Source: Syntrophomonadaceae bacterium (lineage in GTDB: Bacteria; Bacillota; DSM-12270; Thermacetogeniales; Thermacetogeniaceae). From it: a stretch of DNA of 37,803 nucleotides. A model generated the notes under the pieces. That model was not told the DNA's origin. It saw nothing but the letters and a program-made list of their open reading frames with translations, and did no database searches. This document shows positions 7,057 through 37,803 of the stretch, in pieces. Location of the stretch: contig DULK01000051.1 in assembly GCA_012840385.1 (NCBI GenBank), positions 1-37,803 of the forward strand. Reading direction: 5' to 3'. Made by a program: the position numbers and the translations under genes. Within the stretch, counting starts at the first letter, position 1. Every line of letters begins with the position of its first letter.

Positions 7057-7068
7057 GCAGACAAAGGC

Positions 7069-7123
7069 AGACAAGGGGACGGTTCTCTTGTCTAAGAAAG
7101 ACAAGGGGACGGTTCTCTTGTCT
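7069..7123 (+). repeat. Two tandem copies of a 25-nt short palindromic repeat
   Basis: Two identical 25-nt units (7069-7093 and 7099-7123) are separated by AAGAA. Each has AGACAAG and CTTGTCT arms around GGGACGGTTCT. A partial echo (GGCAGACAAA) precedes them. They resemble REP-type palindromes found between genes in many anaerobe genomes. They share the AAGAAAG...GGGACGG core with the 35-nt repeats at 24062-24140. Confidence 0.85.
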
Positions 7124-7164: not shown

Positions 7165-7311
7165 GTCGTTCGCTCGCTTAAATTTCACCCTGTTGCGGAG
7201 TTAGGGGTTATGATCAAGGGTGCAAGTCGAGAGCATGAGCAAGGATAAACCGGAACGAATTTACAGGGCAGACCACCACGCCGCCTCCGGCGGCACCAGC
7301 AGAGCATGAAA
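7165..7311 (+). repeat. Repeat remnants and repeat C copy C2 (reverse)
   Basis: A right-half remnant of the AAATTT-type stem (CGCTTAAATTTCACCC near 7170) is followed by an isolated B right end (GCAAGGATAAACC, 7239-7251). Then comes a reverse-oriented C repeat at 7259-7311 with the stem GCCGCC-TCC-GGCGGC. The stretch from the B end through TTACAGGGCAGA (7239-7272) recurs as a near-direct repeat at 7506-7537, so the complete B2 copy is flanked by duplicated sequence. Confidence 0.65.
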
Positions 7312-7520
7312 TCTGGTTATCCTTGCGCTTGCTCCCGGACTTCGGTTGAACTCGCCCTAAGACTCGTCGCAGACGGCAGCCGACCGGCTCCTATGACGCC
7401 ATCCATGGCGCAGAGTCGCCTATCTCGACATCCTGTCTCGATTCGGCTGCCGTTGACTGCTCCTTCGTTAAGGGCGAGTAACAACCTCCGTAGGTCGCTA
7501 CGCCAGCAAGGATAACCAGA
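7312..7520 (+). repeat. Repeat B, copy B2 (complete)
   Basis: This is a complete copy of about 209 nt. The ends are perfect inverted repeats: TCTGGTTATCCTTGC (7312-7326) and GCAAGGATAACCAGA (7506-7520). The inner stems are a CCCGGACTTCGG hairpin, ACTCGCCC/GGGCGAGT, CGGCAGCCGA/TCGGCTGCCG, CGCCATCCATGGCG, GACATCCTGTC, CCTTCGTTAAGG and ACCTCCGTAGGT. The order fits one branched fold closed by the ends. A 69-codon frame inside is not conserved in other copies. The copy ends about 50 nt before the mazG start. Confidence 0.88.
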
Positions 7521-7568
7521 ACGTATTACAGGGCAGATGCAGATATTATATAAAGGAATGGTATACCC

Positions 7569-12580: not shown

Positions 12581-12637
12581 GGGGACCGGTTTGTTTCCGC
12601 TCGCTCCCGATCGCGTCCCGGACATCTGCCCTGGAAA

Positions 12638-12900
12638 TACATCAAGTTCACCCGCCGGTCTACCGCTCGACTCCCGATTCCAGGCCGGACAGGACGACGG
12701 CTCGCTTCGGGACAGCTCTGGGATGCTGCGTAACAAGTTGCGACCTGCTTCTGTCAAACGCAGCGTTTGGCCTCGCTGCAAATCCATTCCATCGCAGATC
12801 AAGAGGTGCCTGTACTCGCATCCCGACCTGTCATCCTCGCTTCGCCTGTCCTGTTACCCGGCCTTCCATAGGTCGCTCGCCGGTAGACCTGTCGGGTATT
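12638..12900 (+). repeat. Repeat A, copy A1 (complete reference copy)
   Basis: About 263 nt without a gene. The outer arms contain CCGGTCTACCG (left) and CGGTAGACC (right). An inner pair GGGACAG/CTGTCC encloses a core with hairpins CAAACGC-A-GCGTTTG and CGTAAC-AA-GTTGCG. The same sequence occurs in reverse at 37616-37803, and broken copies occur at 14718-15150 and 18173-18390. A 114-codon frame crosses A1 but is not kept in the other copies. Confidence 0.85.
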
Positions 12901-12951
12901 TTCATCCTCTGTTGGTGCCGCCGGAGGCGGCGTGATGGTCTGTCCTGAAAA
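12901..12951 (+). repeat. Repeat C, copy C3
   Basis: The sequence TTCATCCTCTGTTGG is followed by the hairpin GCCGCC-GGA-GGCGGC and GTGATGGTCTGTCCTG. It joins A1 to B3 in the order A-C-B, also seen at 18173-18819. Confidence 0.75.
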
Positions 12952-12960
12952 GTTGTCCAC

Positions 12961-13160
12961 GTTTATCCTAGCGCTTGCTCCCGGACTCCGGTTTAACTCG
13001 CTTATAACGCGTCGTAGACGGCAGCCGACCGGCTCCTATGACGCCGTCCATGGCGCAGAGTCGCCTATCAAATTCCTGTTTCGCTTCGGCTGCCGTTAGC
13101 TGCTCCTTCGTCAAGGGCGAGTAACAACCTCTGTAAGGTTGCTGCGCTGCAAGGATAAAC
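12961..13160 (+). repeat. Repeat B, copy B3 (complete)
   Basis: The ends are GTTTATCCTAGC (12961-12972) and GCAAGGATAAAC (13149-13160), which is inverted with one mismatch. Compared with B2, the outer stem reads GTTTATC/GATAAAC instead of GGTTATC/GATAACC, changed on both sides. The small hairpin CAACCT-CTGTA-AGGTTG is fully paired here, where B2 has CAACCTCCGTAGGTCG. The copy ends about 40 nt before rqcP. Confidence 0.87.
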
Positions 13161-13202
13161 CACTATGTCGGGGATAAATTAGTTATTGGGAGGGGAGAGA
13201 GA

Positions 13203-13481: not shown

Positions 13482-13515
13482 ATAAATATACTGCCTCCGG
13501 ATCATAATAAACATC

Positions 13516-13634
13516 GGGTAAATTTAAAGCTCGCCCGGCACTTAATTGAGCTTCGTTGGCCGAGACAAACACAAAGTTTATTCCCCCTGCAGTACCGTTG
13601 AGTGCCGGGTCGCTTCGCTCTTTAAATTTAACCC
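13516..13634 (+). repeat. E module E1 inside an AAATTT-type stem
   Basis: The outer arms GGGTAAATTTAAAG (13516-13529) and CTTTAAATTTAACCC (13620-13634) are complementary apart from one extra T. They enclose the E module at 13534-13609 (76 nt), bounded by CCCGGCACTTAA and TTGAGTGCCGGG. It fills the gap between rqcP and spoIID. E1 is the shortest E module found. Confidence 0.75.
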
Positions 13635-13690
13635 CACGGGCAAACCATCTTGTTATTTTAAGTGCTCTAATATGATACGGAGGTTGTGTT

Positions 13691-14668
13691 ATGGAACAGA
13701 AAAGGCGGTCGCGGATCTTAACTGTAGCAGTGCTCGGGGTTCTGGCGGTGGTGGCCTTTGCGGGAATGCTCTCCCGGTTAGGGCTCCAGGCGAGGAAGCC
13801 GCTTCCGGGCGCGGGGGAGGATGGGTTCCGTTTCAAGGAGCCTACCATAACCCTTTATGTCAGTGAAACCGGGCAGAAAAAGAGCATCAAGATCGAAGAT
13901 TACATCGCCGGGGTAGTGGCGGCGGAGACGGAGCCCGGCTGGCCGCGGGAAGCGCTGGCGGCGCAGGCCATTCTGGCCCGCACCTTTACCCTTCAGAAGA
14001 TCAAGTACGAGAAAGGGGTTCCGCAGCACGGAGCGGACGCTTCCACGAGCACCGAGGAATTCCAGGCCTACGATCCTTCCCGCATCACCACCAACATTCG
14101 CCAGGCGGTGGCCATGACCCGGGGAATGGTGATCAGGTACAAGGGGCGGTATATCCGGGCGTGGTTCCACTCGAATGCGGGCGGAAAAACCGCAACTGCC
14201 GTGGAAGGGCTGGATTTCAGAAAGGAGCCTACCCCCTACATTGCAGTAGTCTCCGACCCCGGTCAGAAGGTGGCACCTCCTGAGGAACGCCGCTGGACGG
14301 CTTATTTTCCGCTGGAAACCGTCCGCGCTGCCGTCATGAAGCAGACCGGAAAGGACCCCGGCCCGGTTACCTCTGCTGCTGTTGCCCGGCGGGGCCCCTC
14401 GGGAAGGGCAACCCTGATCCGGATCGGAAATACCACCATCAGCGGGCCCGCCCTGCGGTTGGGTTTGGGGGCCGAGCGGATGAAGTCGACTCTGCTGGAT
14501 CGCCTGGAGGTGCGCGGTGGCCAGCTGGTAATATCCGGCCGCGGGCGGGGGCACGGGGTCGGCATGAGCCAGTGGGGTGCCTACTACCTGGCGAAACAGG
14601 GAAAAACTCCGGTGGATATTATCAAATACTATTTCAAAGGGGTTACGGTAGATAAGATCTGGCGTTGA
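13691..14668 (+). CDS. spoIID: Stage II sporulation protein D (SpoIID/LytB-type lytic transglycosylase)
   Basis: SpoIID cleaves peptidoglycan with SpoIIM and SpoIIP during engulfment. The 325-residue protein has one N-terminal membrane segment (LTVAVLGVLAVVAFAGML) and an extracytoplasmic SpoIID domain. Family motifs are IEDYIAGVVAAETEPGWPRE with the catalytic-type glutamate, EALAAQAILARTF, FHSNAGGKTA, GRGRGHGVGMSQWGAYYLA and the end KYYFKGVTV. ATG 13691 has CGGAGG upstream. The length is close to Bacillus SpoIID (343). A terminator lies about 540 nt downstream, beyond nested repeats. Confidence 0.93.
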   Translation: MEQKRRSRILTVAVLGVLAVVAFAGMLSRLGLQARKPLPGAGEDGFRFKEPTITLYVSETGQKKSIKIEDYIAGVVAAETEPGWPREALAAQAILARTFTLQKIKYEKGVPQHGADASTSTEEFQAYDPSRITTNIRQAVAMTRGMVIRYKGRYIRAWFHSNAGGKTATAVEGLDFRKEPTPYIAVVSDPGQKVAPPEERRWTAYFPLETVRAAVMKQTGKDPGPVTSAAVARRGPSGRATLIRIGNTTISGPALRLGLGAERMKSTLLDRLEVRGGQLVISGRGRGHGVGMSQWGAYYLAKQGKTPVDIIKYYFKGVTVDKIWR

Positions 14669-14796
14669 CGTCGTCTCGCAGTAACCCGCCCGGCGAGTTC
14701 AACCCGGCACTGATATCATCAACAAGTTCACCGGCGGTCTACCGCCCGGTTCCCGATTCCAGGCCGGACATGACGACGAAGCCGCAACTCCGTAAC

Positions 14797-15086
14797 GGGC
14801 GAAATTTAAACACTTGCTCTCGGACTCCGGTTGAACTCGCTTATAGCGCGTCGCAGACGGCAGCCGAGCGGCTCCTATGACGCCATCCATGGCGCATAGT
14901 CGCCTGGCTCCCCCACACTCAATGGCACTTTTTCTGTAACGAGATAATTAATAACAGCCAGTTCGAATGAATGTTAAAGGGTAGATTCCCTTTGAGTGCG
15001 GGGTCGCTTCGGCTGCCGTTAGCTGCTCCTTCGTCGAGGGCGGGATAACAACCTCCGTAGGTCGCTCGTTATTTTAAATTTCGCCC
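14797..15086 (+). repeat. Repeat B, copy B4, with replaced outer stem
   Basis: B4 keeps the inner B structure, but its usual ends (TTATCCTTGC/GCAAGGATAA) are replaced by GGGCGAAATTTAAA (14797-14810) and TTTAAATTTCGCCC (15073-15086). These are perfect 14-nt inverted repeats. Both sides changed together. The E2 module lies within it, so the locus is E in B in A. Confidence 0.85.
14911..15003 (+). repeat. E module E2 (93 nt, inside B4)
   Basis: The bounds are CCCCACACTCAA (14911-14922) and TTGAGTGCGGGG (14992-15003), with one mismatch. The AT-rich core is recognisably homologous to the reverse complement of E4: both contain TTAATAACA, CGAATGAA and TTAAAGG in the same order. It occupies the place of the small variable hairpin of B between GTCGCCT and CGCTTCGGCTG. 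Confidence 0.85.
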
Positions 15087-15209
15087 TACGATCAATTTCC
15101 GCATCCCCTGTAAATCCTCACTTCGCCTGTCCTGTTACACGGTCATCCTTTTAAGTTGACCGCTGTTTTTAAATTTCGCCTCAGGATGAGATTAATTAGA
15201 CTAAAAGTG

Positions 15210-15289: not shown

Positions 15290-16105
15290 ATGATGTCGAA
15301 ACGGTTTCAATTTCTCGCAATCTGTATATTTATATTTCTGGCGGTTGCGCTCTCTATTTTCCTGCTGCGAGGGTCCGGCGAACCCGCCCGGGCCGAAACG
15401 GCGGGTACCAGGGCGCAGGCTGCGGAAGAGGAGCCCGGTTCCGCCTCCGACCCGGTCCTGACAAGGGCATCCCTGGAGCGGCGCCTGGAGGCCTTGACGG
15501 AGGGCCCCCGGCGGGGTCTGGAGGAGCTGCAGGGGCGTCTCGACCAGGTGGAGGAGGGGATCCGTGCCGTTCAGGCCCTGCTCAAGGCCTCTTTTCCGGA
15601 TCTGCGCGGGCACCGTGCCGAGCAGGCGGTTAATTTCCTGAAGGCGCGGGGCGTTATCAGCGGGTATCCCGACGGCAGGTTTCACCCCGATGATCCCGTA
15701 TCCAGGGCTGCCCTGGCGGTCATGCTTGCCAGGGCTAAAAACCTTTCGTCGAACCCCGCCGCTGCCGGGTTCAAAGACGTGCCACCCGGCCACTGGGCGG
15801 CAGGGGCGATCGGCGCGGTAAAAGCGGCCGGCTACCTGCACGGCTATCCCGACGGCAGGTTCCGTCCGGACCAGGCGGTTACCAGGGCCGAGGTGGCAGC
15901 CGTTCTGCACAACGCTTATCCGGTGCAGGGGAAGGCTCCTGCGGCCAAATTCCGCGACCTGAAGGGGCACTGGGCGGCCGGTGATATCGAACTGCTGGCG
16001 GCAGCAGGCATAGTGGAGGGCTTTGCGGACGGTACCTTTCGCCCTGACCAGGCTATGAGCAGGGCCGACGTGGCTATGGCTCTGGCACGCATTTTACAGC
16101 AATGA
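15290..16105 (+). CDS. Membrane-anchored protein with three S-layer homology domains
   Basis: A 271-residue protein with an N-terminal membrane segment or uncleaved signal (FLAICIFIFLAVALSIFLL). A charged stretch that may form a coiled coil follows (about 60-100). Three SLH domains come next: FPDLRGHRAEQAV with ISGYPDGRFHPD; FKDVPPGHWAAGAI with LHGYPDGRFRPD; and FRDLKGHWAAGDIE with VEGFADGTFRPD. SLH domains bind pyruvylated secondary cell wall polymer, so this protein probably links membrane and cell wall. ATG 15290 and ATG 15293 are both possible; neither has a good SD. It is followed after 33 nt by LCP and TagA-type genes, whose products build or attach wall polymers. Confidence 0.88.
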   Translation: MMSKRFQFLAICIFIFLAVALSIFLLRGSGEPARAETAGTRAQAAEEEPGSASDPVLTRASLERRLEALTEGPRRGLEELQGRLDQVEEGIRAVQALLKASFPDLRGHRAEQAVNFLKARGVISGYPDGRFHPDDPVSRAALAVMLARAKNLSSNPAAAGFKDVPPGHWAAGAIGAVKAAGYLHGYPDGRFRPDQAVTRAEVAAVLHNAYPVQGKAPAAKFRDLKGHWAAGDIELLAAAGIVEGFADGTFRPDQAMSRADVAMALARILQQ

Positions 16106-18139: not shown

Positions 18140-18172
18140 CCGGGGGATTTACCGTTCCGGCTGCCCTGAAAA

Positions 18173-18390
18173 TACATCAAGTTCACCCGACGGTCTACCG
18201 CTCGACTCCCGATTCCAGGCCGGACAGGACGACGGCTCGCTTCGGGACCCGGCACTCAATATGCCTTATTTAGTTTTATCTATAAAAAACGGGTTTAAGT
18301 TTTTGAATTTTTAAATTAATACTGATTCCATTGAGTGCCGGGTTACCCGGCCTTCCATAGGTCGCTCGCCGGTAGACCCGTCGGGTATTT
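18173..18390 (+). repeat. Repeat A, copy A2, core replaced by an E module
   Basis: The left A arm (18173-18246) and right A arm (18344-18390) match A1, including paired CCCGACGG-TCTACCG and CGGTAGACCCGTCGGG. The A core of about 140 nt between CGCTTCGGGA and TTACCCGG is missing, and E3 sits exactly there. Confidence 0.82.
18247..18343 (+). repeat. E module E3 (97 nt, inside A2)
   Basis: The 14-nt terminal inverted repeats are perfect: ACCCGGCACTCAAT (18247-18260) and ATTGAGTGCCGGGT (18330-18343). The core is very AT-rich (TTTATCTATAAAAAA, TTTTTAAATTAATAC) and not obviously related to the other E cores. It has no start codon with an SD site. Confidence 0.88.
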
Positions 18391-18444
18391 CATCCTCTGT
18401 TGGTGCCGCCGGAGGCGGCGTGGTGATCTGCCTTGTAAATACAT
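18389..18444 (+). repeat. Repeat C, copy C4
   Basis: TTTCATCCTCTGTTGG, hairpin GCCGCC-GGA-GGCGGC, then GTGGTGATCTGCC. It lies between A2 and B5. A matching C copy (C5) follows B5 in the same orientation, so B5 is flanked by direct C repeats. Confidence 0.75.
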
Positions 18445-18527
18445 TCTGGTTATCCTTGCAGGCGCAGCGACCTACGGAGGTTGTTACTCGCCCTTAACGA
18501 AGGGGCAGCTAACGGCAGCCGAACTGA

Positions 18528-18623
18528 CCCCGCACTCAAAGGAAATCCTGTCCTTTAATGTTCATTCGAGATTGATTGTTATTAAATCACCTAATTATAG
18601 AGAAAGTGCTATTGAGTGCGGGG
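18528..18623 (-). repeat. E module E4 (96 nt, inside B5)
   Basis: The bounds are perfect CCCCGCACTCAA (18528-18539) and TTGAGTGCGGGG (18612-18623). It lies at the same place in B as E2 does in B4, in the same relative orientation and with a homologous core, so E2 and E4 probably descend from one insertion or exchange. Confidence 0.87.
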
Positions 18624-18702
18624 GAAGTAGCCGACTCCGCTGCATGGATGCAGCGTAGGAGGCGGTCGGCTGCCGTCTGCGACGAGTTTAGGGCGAGTTA
18701 AA

Positions 18703-18796
18703 CCCGGCACTCAAAATCACTGCCATAGTATAAACAACTCAGTATCATAATTCGTTCTGGAATGGTTCAGTTGTTAAATCTGTATTGAGTGCCGGG
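18703..18796 (-). repeat. E module E5 (94 nt, inside B5)
   Basis: The bounds are perfect CCCGGCACTCAA (18703-18714) and TTGAGTGCCGGG (18785-18796). It replaces the loop of the CCCGG-ACT-CCGG hairpin present in B3 (and, with small changes, B2 and B4), next to TTGCTC and TTAACTCG in B orientation. Its core differs from E2/E4 apart from short AT-rich matches. Confidence 0.85.
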
Positions 18797-18819
18797 GAGC
18801 AAGCGCAAGGATAACCAGA

Positions 18820-18872
18820 TTTCATCCTCTGTTGGTACCAACGGAGGCGGCGTGGGGGTCTGCCGTGAAAAA
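18820..18872 (+). repeat. Repeat C, copy C5
   Basis: TTTCATCCTCTGTTGGTACC, an imperfect hairpin, then GGCGTGGGGGTCTGCC. It directly follows the end of B5 and is a direct repeat of C4. Confidence 0.7.
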
Positions 18873-24061: not shown

Positions 24062-24140
24062 AAAGAAAGGGACGGAAATACGCACGGGGCTGCCCTAAAG
24101 AAAGGGACGGAAATACGCACGGGGCTGCCCTAAAGAAAGG
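24062..24140 (+). repeat. Tandem 35-nt repeats (about 2.3 copies)
   Basis: Units start AAAGAAAGGGACGG at 24062 and 24097, with a partial third at 24132. Each unit ends CACGGGGCTGCCCT. They share the AAAG...GGGACGG core with the palindromes at 7069-7123. Confidence 0.85.
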
Positions 24141-37566: not shown

Positions 37567-37615
37567 ATGCCGCCCGGGCGGCACCATCCGCCTCCGGCGG
37601 CACCAACAGAGTATG
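37567..37615 (-). repeat. Repeat C, copy C6 (reverse)
   Basis: GCCGCCTCCGGCGGC-type hairpin followed by ACCAACAGAGTATGAAAA, the reverse complement of the C consensus. A similar CCGCCCGGGCGGC palindrome also occurs at 37258-37270. Confidence 0.65.
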
Positions 37616-37803
37616 AAAATACCCGACGGGTCTACCGGCGAGCGACCTATGGAAGGCCGGGTAACAGGACAGGCGACGCGAGGATGACAGGTCGGGATGC
37701 GAGTACAGACACCTCTTGACCTGCGATGGAATGGATTTGCAGCGAGGCCAAACGCGGCGTTTGACAGAAGCAGTTCGCAACTTGTTACGCAGCATCCCAG
37801 AGC
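37616..37803 (-). repeat. Repeat A, copy A3b (reverse, cut by the window end)
   Basis: Reverse complement of A1 12712-12900, nearly identical, including CAAACGC-G-GCGTTTG where A1 has an A in the loop. The copy runs off the window at the position matching CAGCTCTGGGATGC of A1. Confidence 0.85.

Follow-up and report, generated by a model that had tools for sequence, protein, structure and literature searches.

Nested hairpin mini-elements in a Syntrophomonadaceae genome: a mobile carrier and a family of small hairpins at the apices of other hairpins

In the draft genome of a Syntrophomonadaceae bacterium (G000; 2.70 Mb in 105 contigs), the gap separating a SpoIID-like gene (13691-14668) from an SLH-domain gene (15290-16105) holds structured non-coding DNA that the original prediction read as three repeats set one inside another, E within B and B within A, each at the tip of a hairpin. 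This locus raises the question of whether small structured elements are gathered at hairpin tips and, if they are, by what route they arrive there. The window is the whole stretch of DNA analysed, which is the entire contig carrying the locus (C39; 37,803 nt; Table 1). Because A, B, and E each recur genome-wide, the nest is not a product of chance. Folded as single-stranded DNA, the focal stretch forms concentric stems of -76.8 kcal/mol (z -3.8 against shuffled sequences). On balance it is likely that these repeats form a layered population of non-autonomous hairpin mini-elements, consisting of a mobile carrier (D), a family of hairpins sited at tips (E), and nests carried as passengers.

The predicted order of the layers was largely upheld, since A-like sequence flanks both sides, B lies between, and E is inside B. 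The hairpin of A is not split, however; the inner domain of the reference copy A1 is absent between the two A-frame parts and has been replaced. B had been placed at the tip of the CGTAAC-AA-GTTGCG hairpin of A, and the left junction fits this, but the GTTGCG arm and the part downstream of it are gone. The supposed single B element at 14797-15086 is in fact two layers, an outer GGGCGAAATTTAAA/TTTAAATTTCGCCC stem, here called the AAATTT-stem shell, and a B core that is found elsewhere within a GGTTTATCC/GGATAAACC stem. E is located as described, at the small variable hairpin of B, but this tip hairpin, which at one orthologous B is the 12-nt GGCATGGATGCC, has been exchanged for E rather than interrupted by it. 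Nor is A the outermost layer, for it is normally housed inside D, an element that had been overlooked and whose ends are absent from the focal A copy. A match to NEAT1_2 at 15069-15186 scored below the cut-off and was dismissed as chance. The same gap in relatives is empty in the congeneric G001, holds a D unit with a reversed B in G002, and holds a different multi-shell nest in G006. In G001 the element may have been lost or may never have been present, and the focal site is on its own non-decisive.

Table 1. Repeat features of the window, with positions and strand.
Feature	Position	Strand	Remarks
B right half and D right end, at contig start	1..171	+	
D unit with B	7277..7527	-	B part 7337-7493 scores RF01731, 45.9 bits against a cut-off of 43
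D unit with intact A	12626..12940	+	Missing in congeneric G002
B in TTATCC stem, in tandem after D[A]	12941..13170	+	D right end decayed
AAATTT-stem shell with E-family element (13535-13608)	13501..13660	+	
Left part of A frame, ending CGTAAC	14718..14796	+	14720-14778 88% identical to A1
AAATTT-stem shell, left arm GGGCGAAATTTAAAC	14797..14811	+	Fold pairs arm with 15073-15086
B core with E at tip 1	14813..15066	+	Against B core 12974-13143, 92% (left) and 91% (right); RF01731 family by other copies
E element, type E1, CCCCACACTCA...TGAGTGCGGGG, at B tip 1	14911..15003	+	
AAATTT-stem shell, right arm TTTAAATTTCGCCC	15073..15086	+	
Right part of A frame, TACG..., resuming with CGCATCCC	15087..15150	+	15100-15148 83% identical to A1
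D unit, inner part of A replaced by E-family element (18249-18341)	18161..18422	+	A 1-84 and 224-305 flank at 97%
D unit with reversed B carrying E1 (about 18528-18624) and E3 (about 18704-18795)	18426..18872	+	
A copy, contig ends inside	37588..37803	-	97% to A1

Genome-wide, there are 45 matches to A and 63 match pieces of B in G000. Many contigs terminate inside A, which is therefore a repeat that broke the assembly. Both repeats also occur in the congeneric G001 and G002 and in other genera of the family, and their presence in the closed chromosome of G005 (2,939,057 bases) excludes an assembly artefact. A is found intact elsewhere, and B lies within A at no fewer than five loci in the three congeneric genomes. 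In the window, C51, L140, and L113, the inner domain of A (about 94-182 of A1, with the GTTGCG arm) is absent and the AAATTT-stem shell with B stands instead; C104 has only the left half of the same arrangement and then stops, and an AAATTT-like left shell arm is present in C104, C51, L140, and L113 as well. The junction CTGGG/TTCAGGCGAAATTTAA is common to L140 and L113, and to C51 as judged by its left junction; since it is shared, these nests are likely to descend from one event. The junction in the window is different, reading CGTAAC/GGGCGAAATTTAAA...TTTAAATTTCGCCC/TACG.

The outermost mobile unit, D, consists of two hairpins, of which the second is GCCGCC-NNN-GGCGGC, and its ends (CTGCCCTGAAAATA on the left, TATTTTCATCCTCTGTTGGTGCCGCC-GGA-GGCGGCGTG on the right) enclose both A and B. 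A slot at the apex of hairpin 1 is occupied by A, by B in the GGTTTATCC/GGATAAACC stem, by a reversed B in its own stem, by another stem, or by almost nothing; reduced forms of D are present in relatives and also, holding different small contents, in two genera outside the family (G051 and G020). D is inserted directly before CTGNCNTGAAA, a sequence resembling its own left end, and its 71 unique right flanks conform to CT G [CT] C N TG AAA. Among 105 aligned flanks, 34 lead straight into another D, giving tandem arrays. Comparison between genomes demonstrates that D is mobile as a unit. For example, a 436-bp D[A[B]] nest of G001 is matched in G000 by a site without the element and with a single CTGCCCTGAAA, and a minimal D of G001 is absent at the corresponding site in G002. 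The closed chromosome G005 has 60 D ends, 33 forward and 27 reverse (reversed-pattern control, 0), with 38 of the 60 oriented towards the lagging-strand template, a bias that is suggestive only (p about 0.05). Beside the D at 7277, two near-identical 30-nt tandem units with GGGGACGGTTCTCTTGTCT were seen (7064-7123), and GGGGACGGTTCTCTTGTCT also adjoins a D in G051 (L184).

Like IS200/IS605 elements and REP/RAYT sequences, D lies beside a short target resembling its own end, is without inverted terminal repeats, and has a subterminal hairpin at each end, GCCGCC-NNN-GGCGGC at one and hairpin 1 at the other. Read on the other strand, its layout is that of IS200/IS605, with insertion after the target, an end resembling the target, and a hairpin near the end. 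The match to the target is about 11 nt in D, whereas it is 4-5 nt in IS200/IS605. The logic of REP and IS200/IS605 movement has been described (PMC6006769), and D would move as a single-strand element of one or the other type. A transposase acting on hairpins and encoded elsewhere had been suggested for the nest, a suggestion that is unproven. No Y1 transposase is encoded by or beside D, and the only Y1-type gene of G000, a single-copy RAYT-like gene of 261 aa (C101:29901-30239; L211), has neither D nor E ends beside it. There is likewise no Y1 match in the D-bearing relative G020. This gene was therefore rejected as the source of D or E, since no matching ends are adjacent and it is not in every D-bearing genome, and D is not filed as a member of IS200/IS605 or REP because no Y1 gene is linked to it.

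E elements are about 70-100 nt long and have common ends, CACTCA...TGAGTG, usually within CCN GC/GC N'GG, around interiors of several unrelated types (E1, F, E3, E4, C, and others). A search of 20 genomes of the class with the pattern GCACTCA-N(56-86)-TGAGTGC gave 29 copies in G000, 55 in G001, 10 in G002, 16 in G006, seven in G011, four in G014, and two in G010 (reversed control, 0-1); G003, G005, and G012 are among the genomes that lack E. The 106 copies with full flanks fall in 26 flank contexts, and the hosts include three tips of B, A, and other stems. Across 122 copies of B from the three congeneric genomes, an element occupies tip 1 in 29, tip 2 in 14, tip 3 in nine, and the central AYGGAY tip in none, although the loci of G001 and G002 were gathered via a B pattern and these are not unbiased genome counts. 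Interior F is common to B tip 2 and A (0.95), and interior E3 to B tip 3 and the TTATCC stem (0.93). The same interior in unlike hosts is direct evidence that elements have moved, or been copied, from one host to another.

Orthologous sites show what happens to the host. In one B copy, CTGA-GGCATGGATGCC-GAAGTAG in G001 (L121) corresponds to CTGA-CCCCGCACTCA...TGAGTGCGGGG-GAAGTAG in G002 (L120), so that the 12-nt tip hairpin has been exchanged for E1. Simple insertion into a tip, as first envisaged, does not describe this, because the host tip is replaced. Another orthologous B is without E in G000 and bears E1 and F in G001; further subfamily markers differ there too, and at this site exchange among copies of B is a reasonable alternative to insertion. 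At most sites the flanks of E are inverted (CCN.../...N'GG) and not directly repeated. Direct target-site duplication, the mark of DDE-type MITEs, is not found for E in general and was rejected as a rule, the one case being an E-family site in A, which differs from the rest in that 5 nt (GTCGC) are duplicated and nothing has been lost. In the stretches around the matches, neither a long autonomous element with E ends nor unpaired E ends pointing to one were seen.

Support for the tip position also comes from working RNAs. An Rfam scan of E-bearing loci gave 15 with a host RNA match: class A RNase P RNA (L254, 312 bits; L267, 302 bits), eight cobalamin riboswitches, four c-di-AMP riboswitches, and one FMN riboswitch. 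In all ten alignments shown, from these 15 loci, an extra 83-102 nt lies in a terminal loop. In RNase P RNA the E-bearing helix, P12, has a short tip without E in 16 relatives, often CCCNGC-loop-GCN'GGG, and carries E in G006 and G011. Likewise, the cobalamin riboswitch stem CCACTG...GGGAA reads TCCAG-TGGAAGAAA-CTGGA in G004 as against TCCAG-CACTCA...TGAGTG-CTGGA in G006, and additional copies of this stem bear E. E is found at the apex of many different pre-existing hairpins, where it stands in for the loop or tip hairpin of the host. The view that structured mini-elements gather at hairpin tips is thus better supported than could be known from the focal locus, because the structures of these host RNAs were defined independently of the source genome. 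It also withstood the refuting conditions set for it at the outset, in that A exists in intact form, B and E keep to fixed tips, and sites lacking the element are known. When the pairing energy of host flanks was compared with that of permuted flanks, there was no significant excess (p about 0.06 and 0.12), and the tip claim accordingly rests on the known RNA structures and on the comparison of relatives.

Several riboswitches have further peculiarities. Some cobalamin riboswitches have two E-like inserts (L160:2709-3076; L253; L265), one of them near the conserved GGTGCAA loop, and ligand binding may be altered in those that are doubly inserted. In the c-di-AMP riboswitch (L309-L338), the CACTCA...TGAGTG tip is present in most genera of the family and the outer stem varies, and this tip may be an old inherited insertion. 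Two mutually related E copies (L252 and L263, in G006 and G011) lie in a host that gave neither an Rfam match nor a host hairpin; possibly this host is an undescribed structured RNA.

In G006 and G011, two species of a sister genus, the 23 exact-pattern copies of E comprise 12 in RNAs, nine in palindromic repeats (partly judged by eye), and two that were unassigned. RNAs of the RNase P and riboswitch type make up around a tenth of a percent of the genome, as roughly estimated from numbers of Rfam hits, and with 12 of 23 copies in them the placement of E is far from random. These figures bear on the explanation that E is an ordinary short inverted-repeat transposon, inserting anywhere, of which only the insertions into tolerant hairpin loops survive. 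Its ends are indeed inverted repeats, and in RNase P RNA and riboswitches it is the tips that tolerate insertions. Intergenic DNA is tolerant as well and far larger, yet 12 of the 23 copies are in RNA genes and nine in palindromic repeats; the flanks are mostly inverted rather than direct repeats, and host loops have been lost. Such survivorship is therefore considered unlikely.

It is slightly less probable again that each type of nest arose once, by chance, and was then multiplied through amplification of D and gene conversion of A and B, with no insertion directed to tips. The shared junctions of A[B] nests, the subfamily differences at an orthologous B site, and the constant tip taken by E1 in B would all follow from a few captures of this kind. 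Conversion cannot, however, account for hosts of E that have no sequence in common, namely RNase P RNA, three riboswitch classes, A, B, and other stems, or for one interior in different hosts. Jointly, survival at tolerant loops and copying from few captures are allotted about a third of the probability.

The preferred explanation of the tip position, put forward tentatively, is that E was placed by a process that would recognise or need an extruded host hairpin, be it single-stranded DNA or RNA, and across whose tip a new one would be joined. The process would probably have placed the B-holding shells also, and would depend on an enzyme acting in trans. Tips would then be the target and not simply where elements survive. 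A bolder version, somewhat less likely than not, has the E family moved by a special activity for which the tip itself, of a DNA or an RNA hairpin, is the signal, and which would strip off the terminal loop and close the gap with another hairpin. Nests would afterwards travel as passengers of D and through exchange between B copies. The present distribution is in part the result of D-borne copying of ready-made nests rather than of fresh insertion at tips, and exchange between copies of B has probably shaped it too. Counting against the preferred explanation are the lack of an enzyme linked to D or E, the strand bias of D, which is suggestive only, the two loci L252 and L263, the null result with flank energies, the B pair explicable by exchange, the apparently inherited c-di-AMP tip, and the GTCGC duplication. 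A rival explanation works through RNA. E hairpins would be excised from transcripts and ligated into a loop of a different RNA, and the product would return to DNA in the manner of retroposition. The hosts are often transcribed structured RNAs in which a loop has been replaced, and an RNA route has been proposed for the hairpin elements of Allomyces (PMC2800124); many hosts of E are, however, intergenic repeats that may not be transcribed, and this rival is judged improbable, a little more so than copying from few captures.

The identity of B bears on what the nests are for. On the minus strand, B at 7337-7493 reaches the gathering cut-off of the Rfam covariance model RF01731 (TwoAYGGAY), the copy at 12983-13136 scores 24.7 bits, and the focal E-bearing copy is also below the cut-off. 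There are 29 matches to this model in G000, 23 in G001, and 19 in G013, on both strands, and the family is present in 44 of 299 genomes of the phylum, in 36 genera and often several times per genome (controls, 0 of 14). Rfam lists RF01731 as cis-regulatory; the original report, from human gut, gamma-Proteobacteria, and Clostridiales, considered it probably an RNA and probably not cis-regulatory. In contrast to the catalogued cis-regulatory RNA, B is here a dispersed repeat on both strands within D or A, and in this bacterial family TwoAYGGAY behaves as a dispersed mobile-type repeat. Its copy number and dispersal make a single regulatory role unlikely.

Binding of CsrA to TwoAYGGAY has been proposed (PMC4333381), and B might on that basis be a functional RNA, kept as a CsrA-binding sRNA or cis-regulator with the extra hairpins as regulatory modules. 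This is very improbable, given that B is present in dozens of copies, on both strands, in tandem arrays, and as partial copies, and that F stands in place of the loop bearing the ACGGAG motif and E1 in place of an AYGGAY hairpin, so that the proposed protein sites would be lost. A function of B as an sRNA was rejected as unlikely for the same reasons, the many dispersed copies and the replaced putative protein sites. By eye, RF01731 matches from other families (L223-L232) share a similar core and differ in their outer stems, and swapping of shells may be general among TwoAYGGAY elements.

Hairpins that enter other hairpins have been described before. The intervening sequences (IVS) of bacterial rRNA are stem-loops that replace a small tetraloop at the tip of a helix, and their origin and mobility are described as unclear, the origin still so more than 25 years after their discovery (PMC4990558). 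Like the IVS of 23S rRNA, E is a stem-loop standing where a helix of a working RNA would otherwise have its terminal loop; it differs in being a recognisable family with common ends, and in occupying RNase P RNA, riboswitches, and dispersed repeats, whereas IVS are in rRNA helices 9, 25, and 45. In the organelles of Volvox, palindromes are inserted within other palindromes and the composites copied (PMC2670323), and hairpin elements are known from sponge and fungal mitochondria, including the rRNA genes (PMC2800124). As far as the available text of these reports goes, the likeness extends to small palindromes within palindromes, copied composites, and affected rRNA genes, but those are organelle genomes, and that text mentions neither a carrier for which a target is defined nor hosts among riboswitches and RNase P RNA. 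The BOX, RUP, and SPRITE repeats of pneumococci are likewise small composite bacterial repeats that have come to lie one within another (PMC3049150); unlike the elements described here, BOX and RUP are bounded by terminal inverted repeats and show duplicated targets, and no tip-specific nesting is described in the accessible portion of that report. A partial search of the literature on nested bacterial hairpins and riboswitch-tip elements found no description of the present system. The nested organelle palindromes of Volvox and the tetraloop-replacing rRNA IVS are the closest known, and as far as this partial search shows, none of the systems compared combines a carrier and nesting at tips with a single family that has invaded RNase P RNA as well as riboswitches.

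It has long been asked how hairpin elements enter helix tips in ribosomal and other RNAs, and the question is now testable because there is one recognisable E family, with orthologous sites with and without E and a closed genome, within a bacterial family. If a tip-recognising activity is responsible, it or its kind would explain the spread of rRNA IVS and of organelle palindromes. TwoAYGGAY, catalogued in Rfam as a 'regulatory RNA', is in these bacteria at least a dispersed repeat of mobile type, and selfish hairpins, once acquired, can enlarge peripheral stems in RNase P RNA and in riboswitches. Two minor observations were made in addition. About 500 bp at L079:1146-1644 (compared with L168) are present in G000 and absent in G001, apparently within a coding region, and the window contains a 35-nt exact tandem duplication at 24062-24131 (AAAGAAAGGGACGGAAATACGCACGGGGCTGCCCT).
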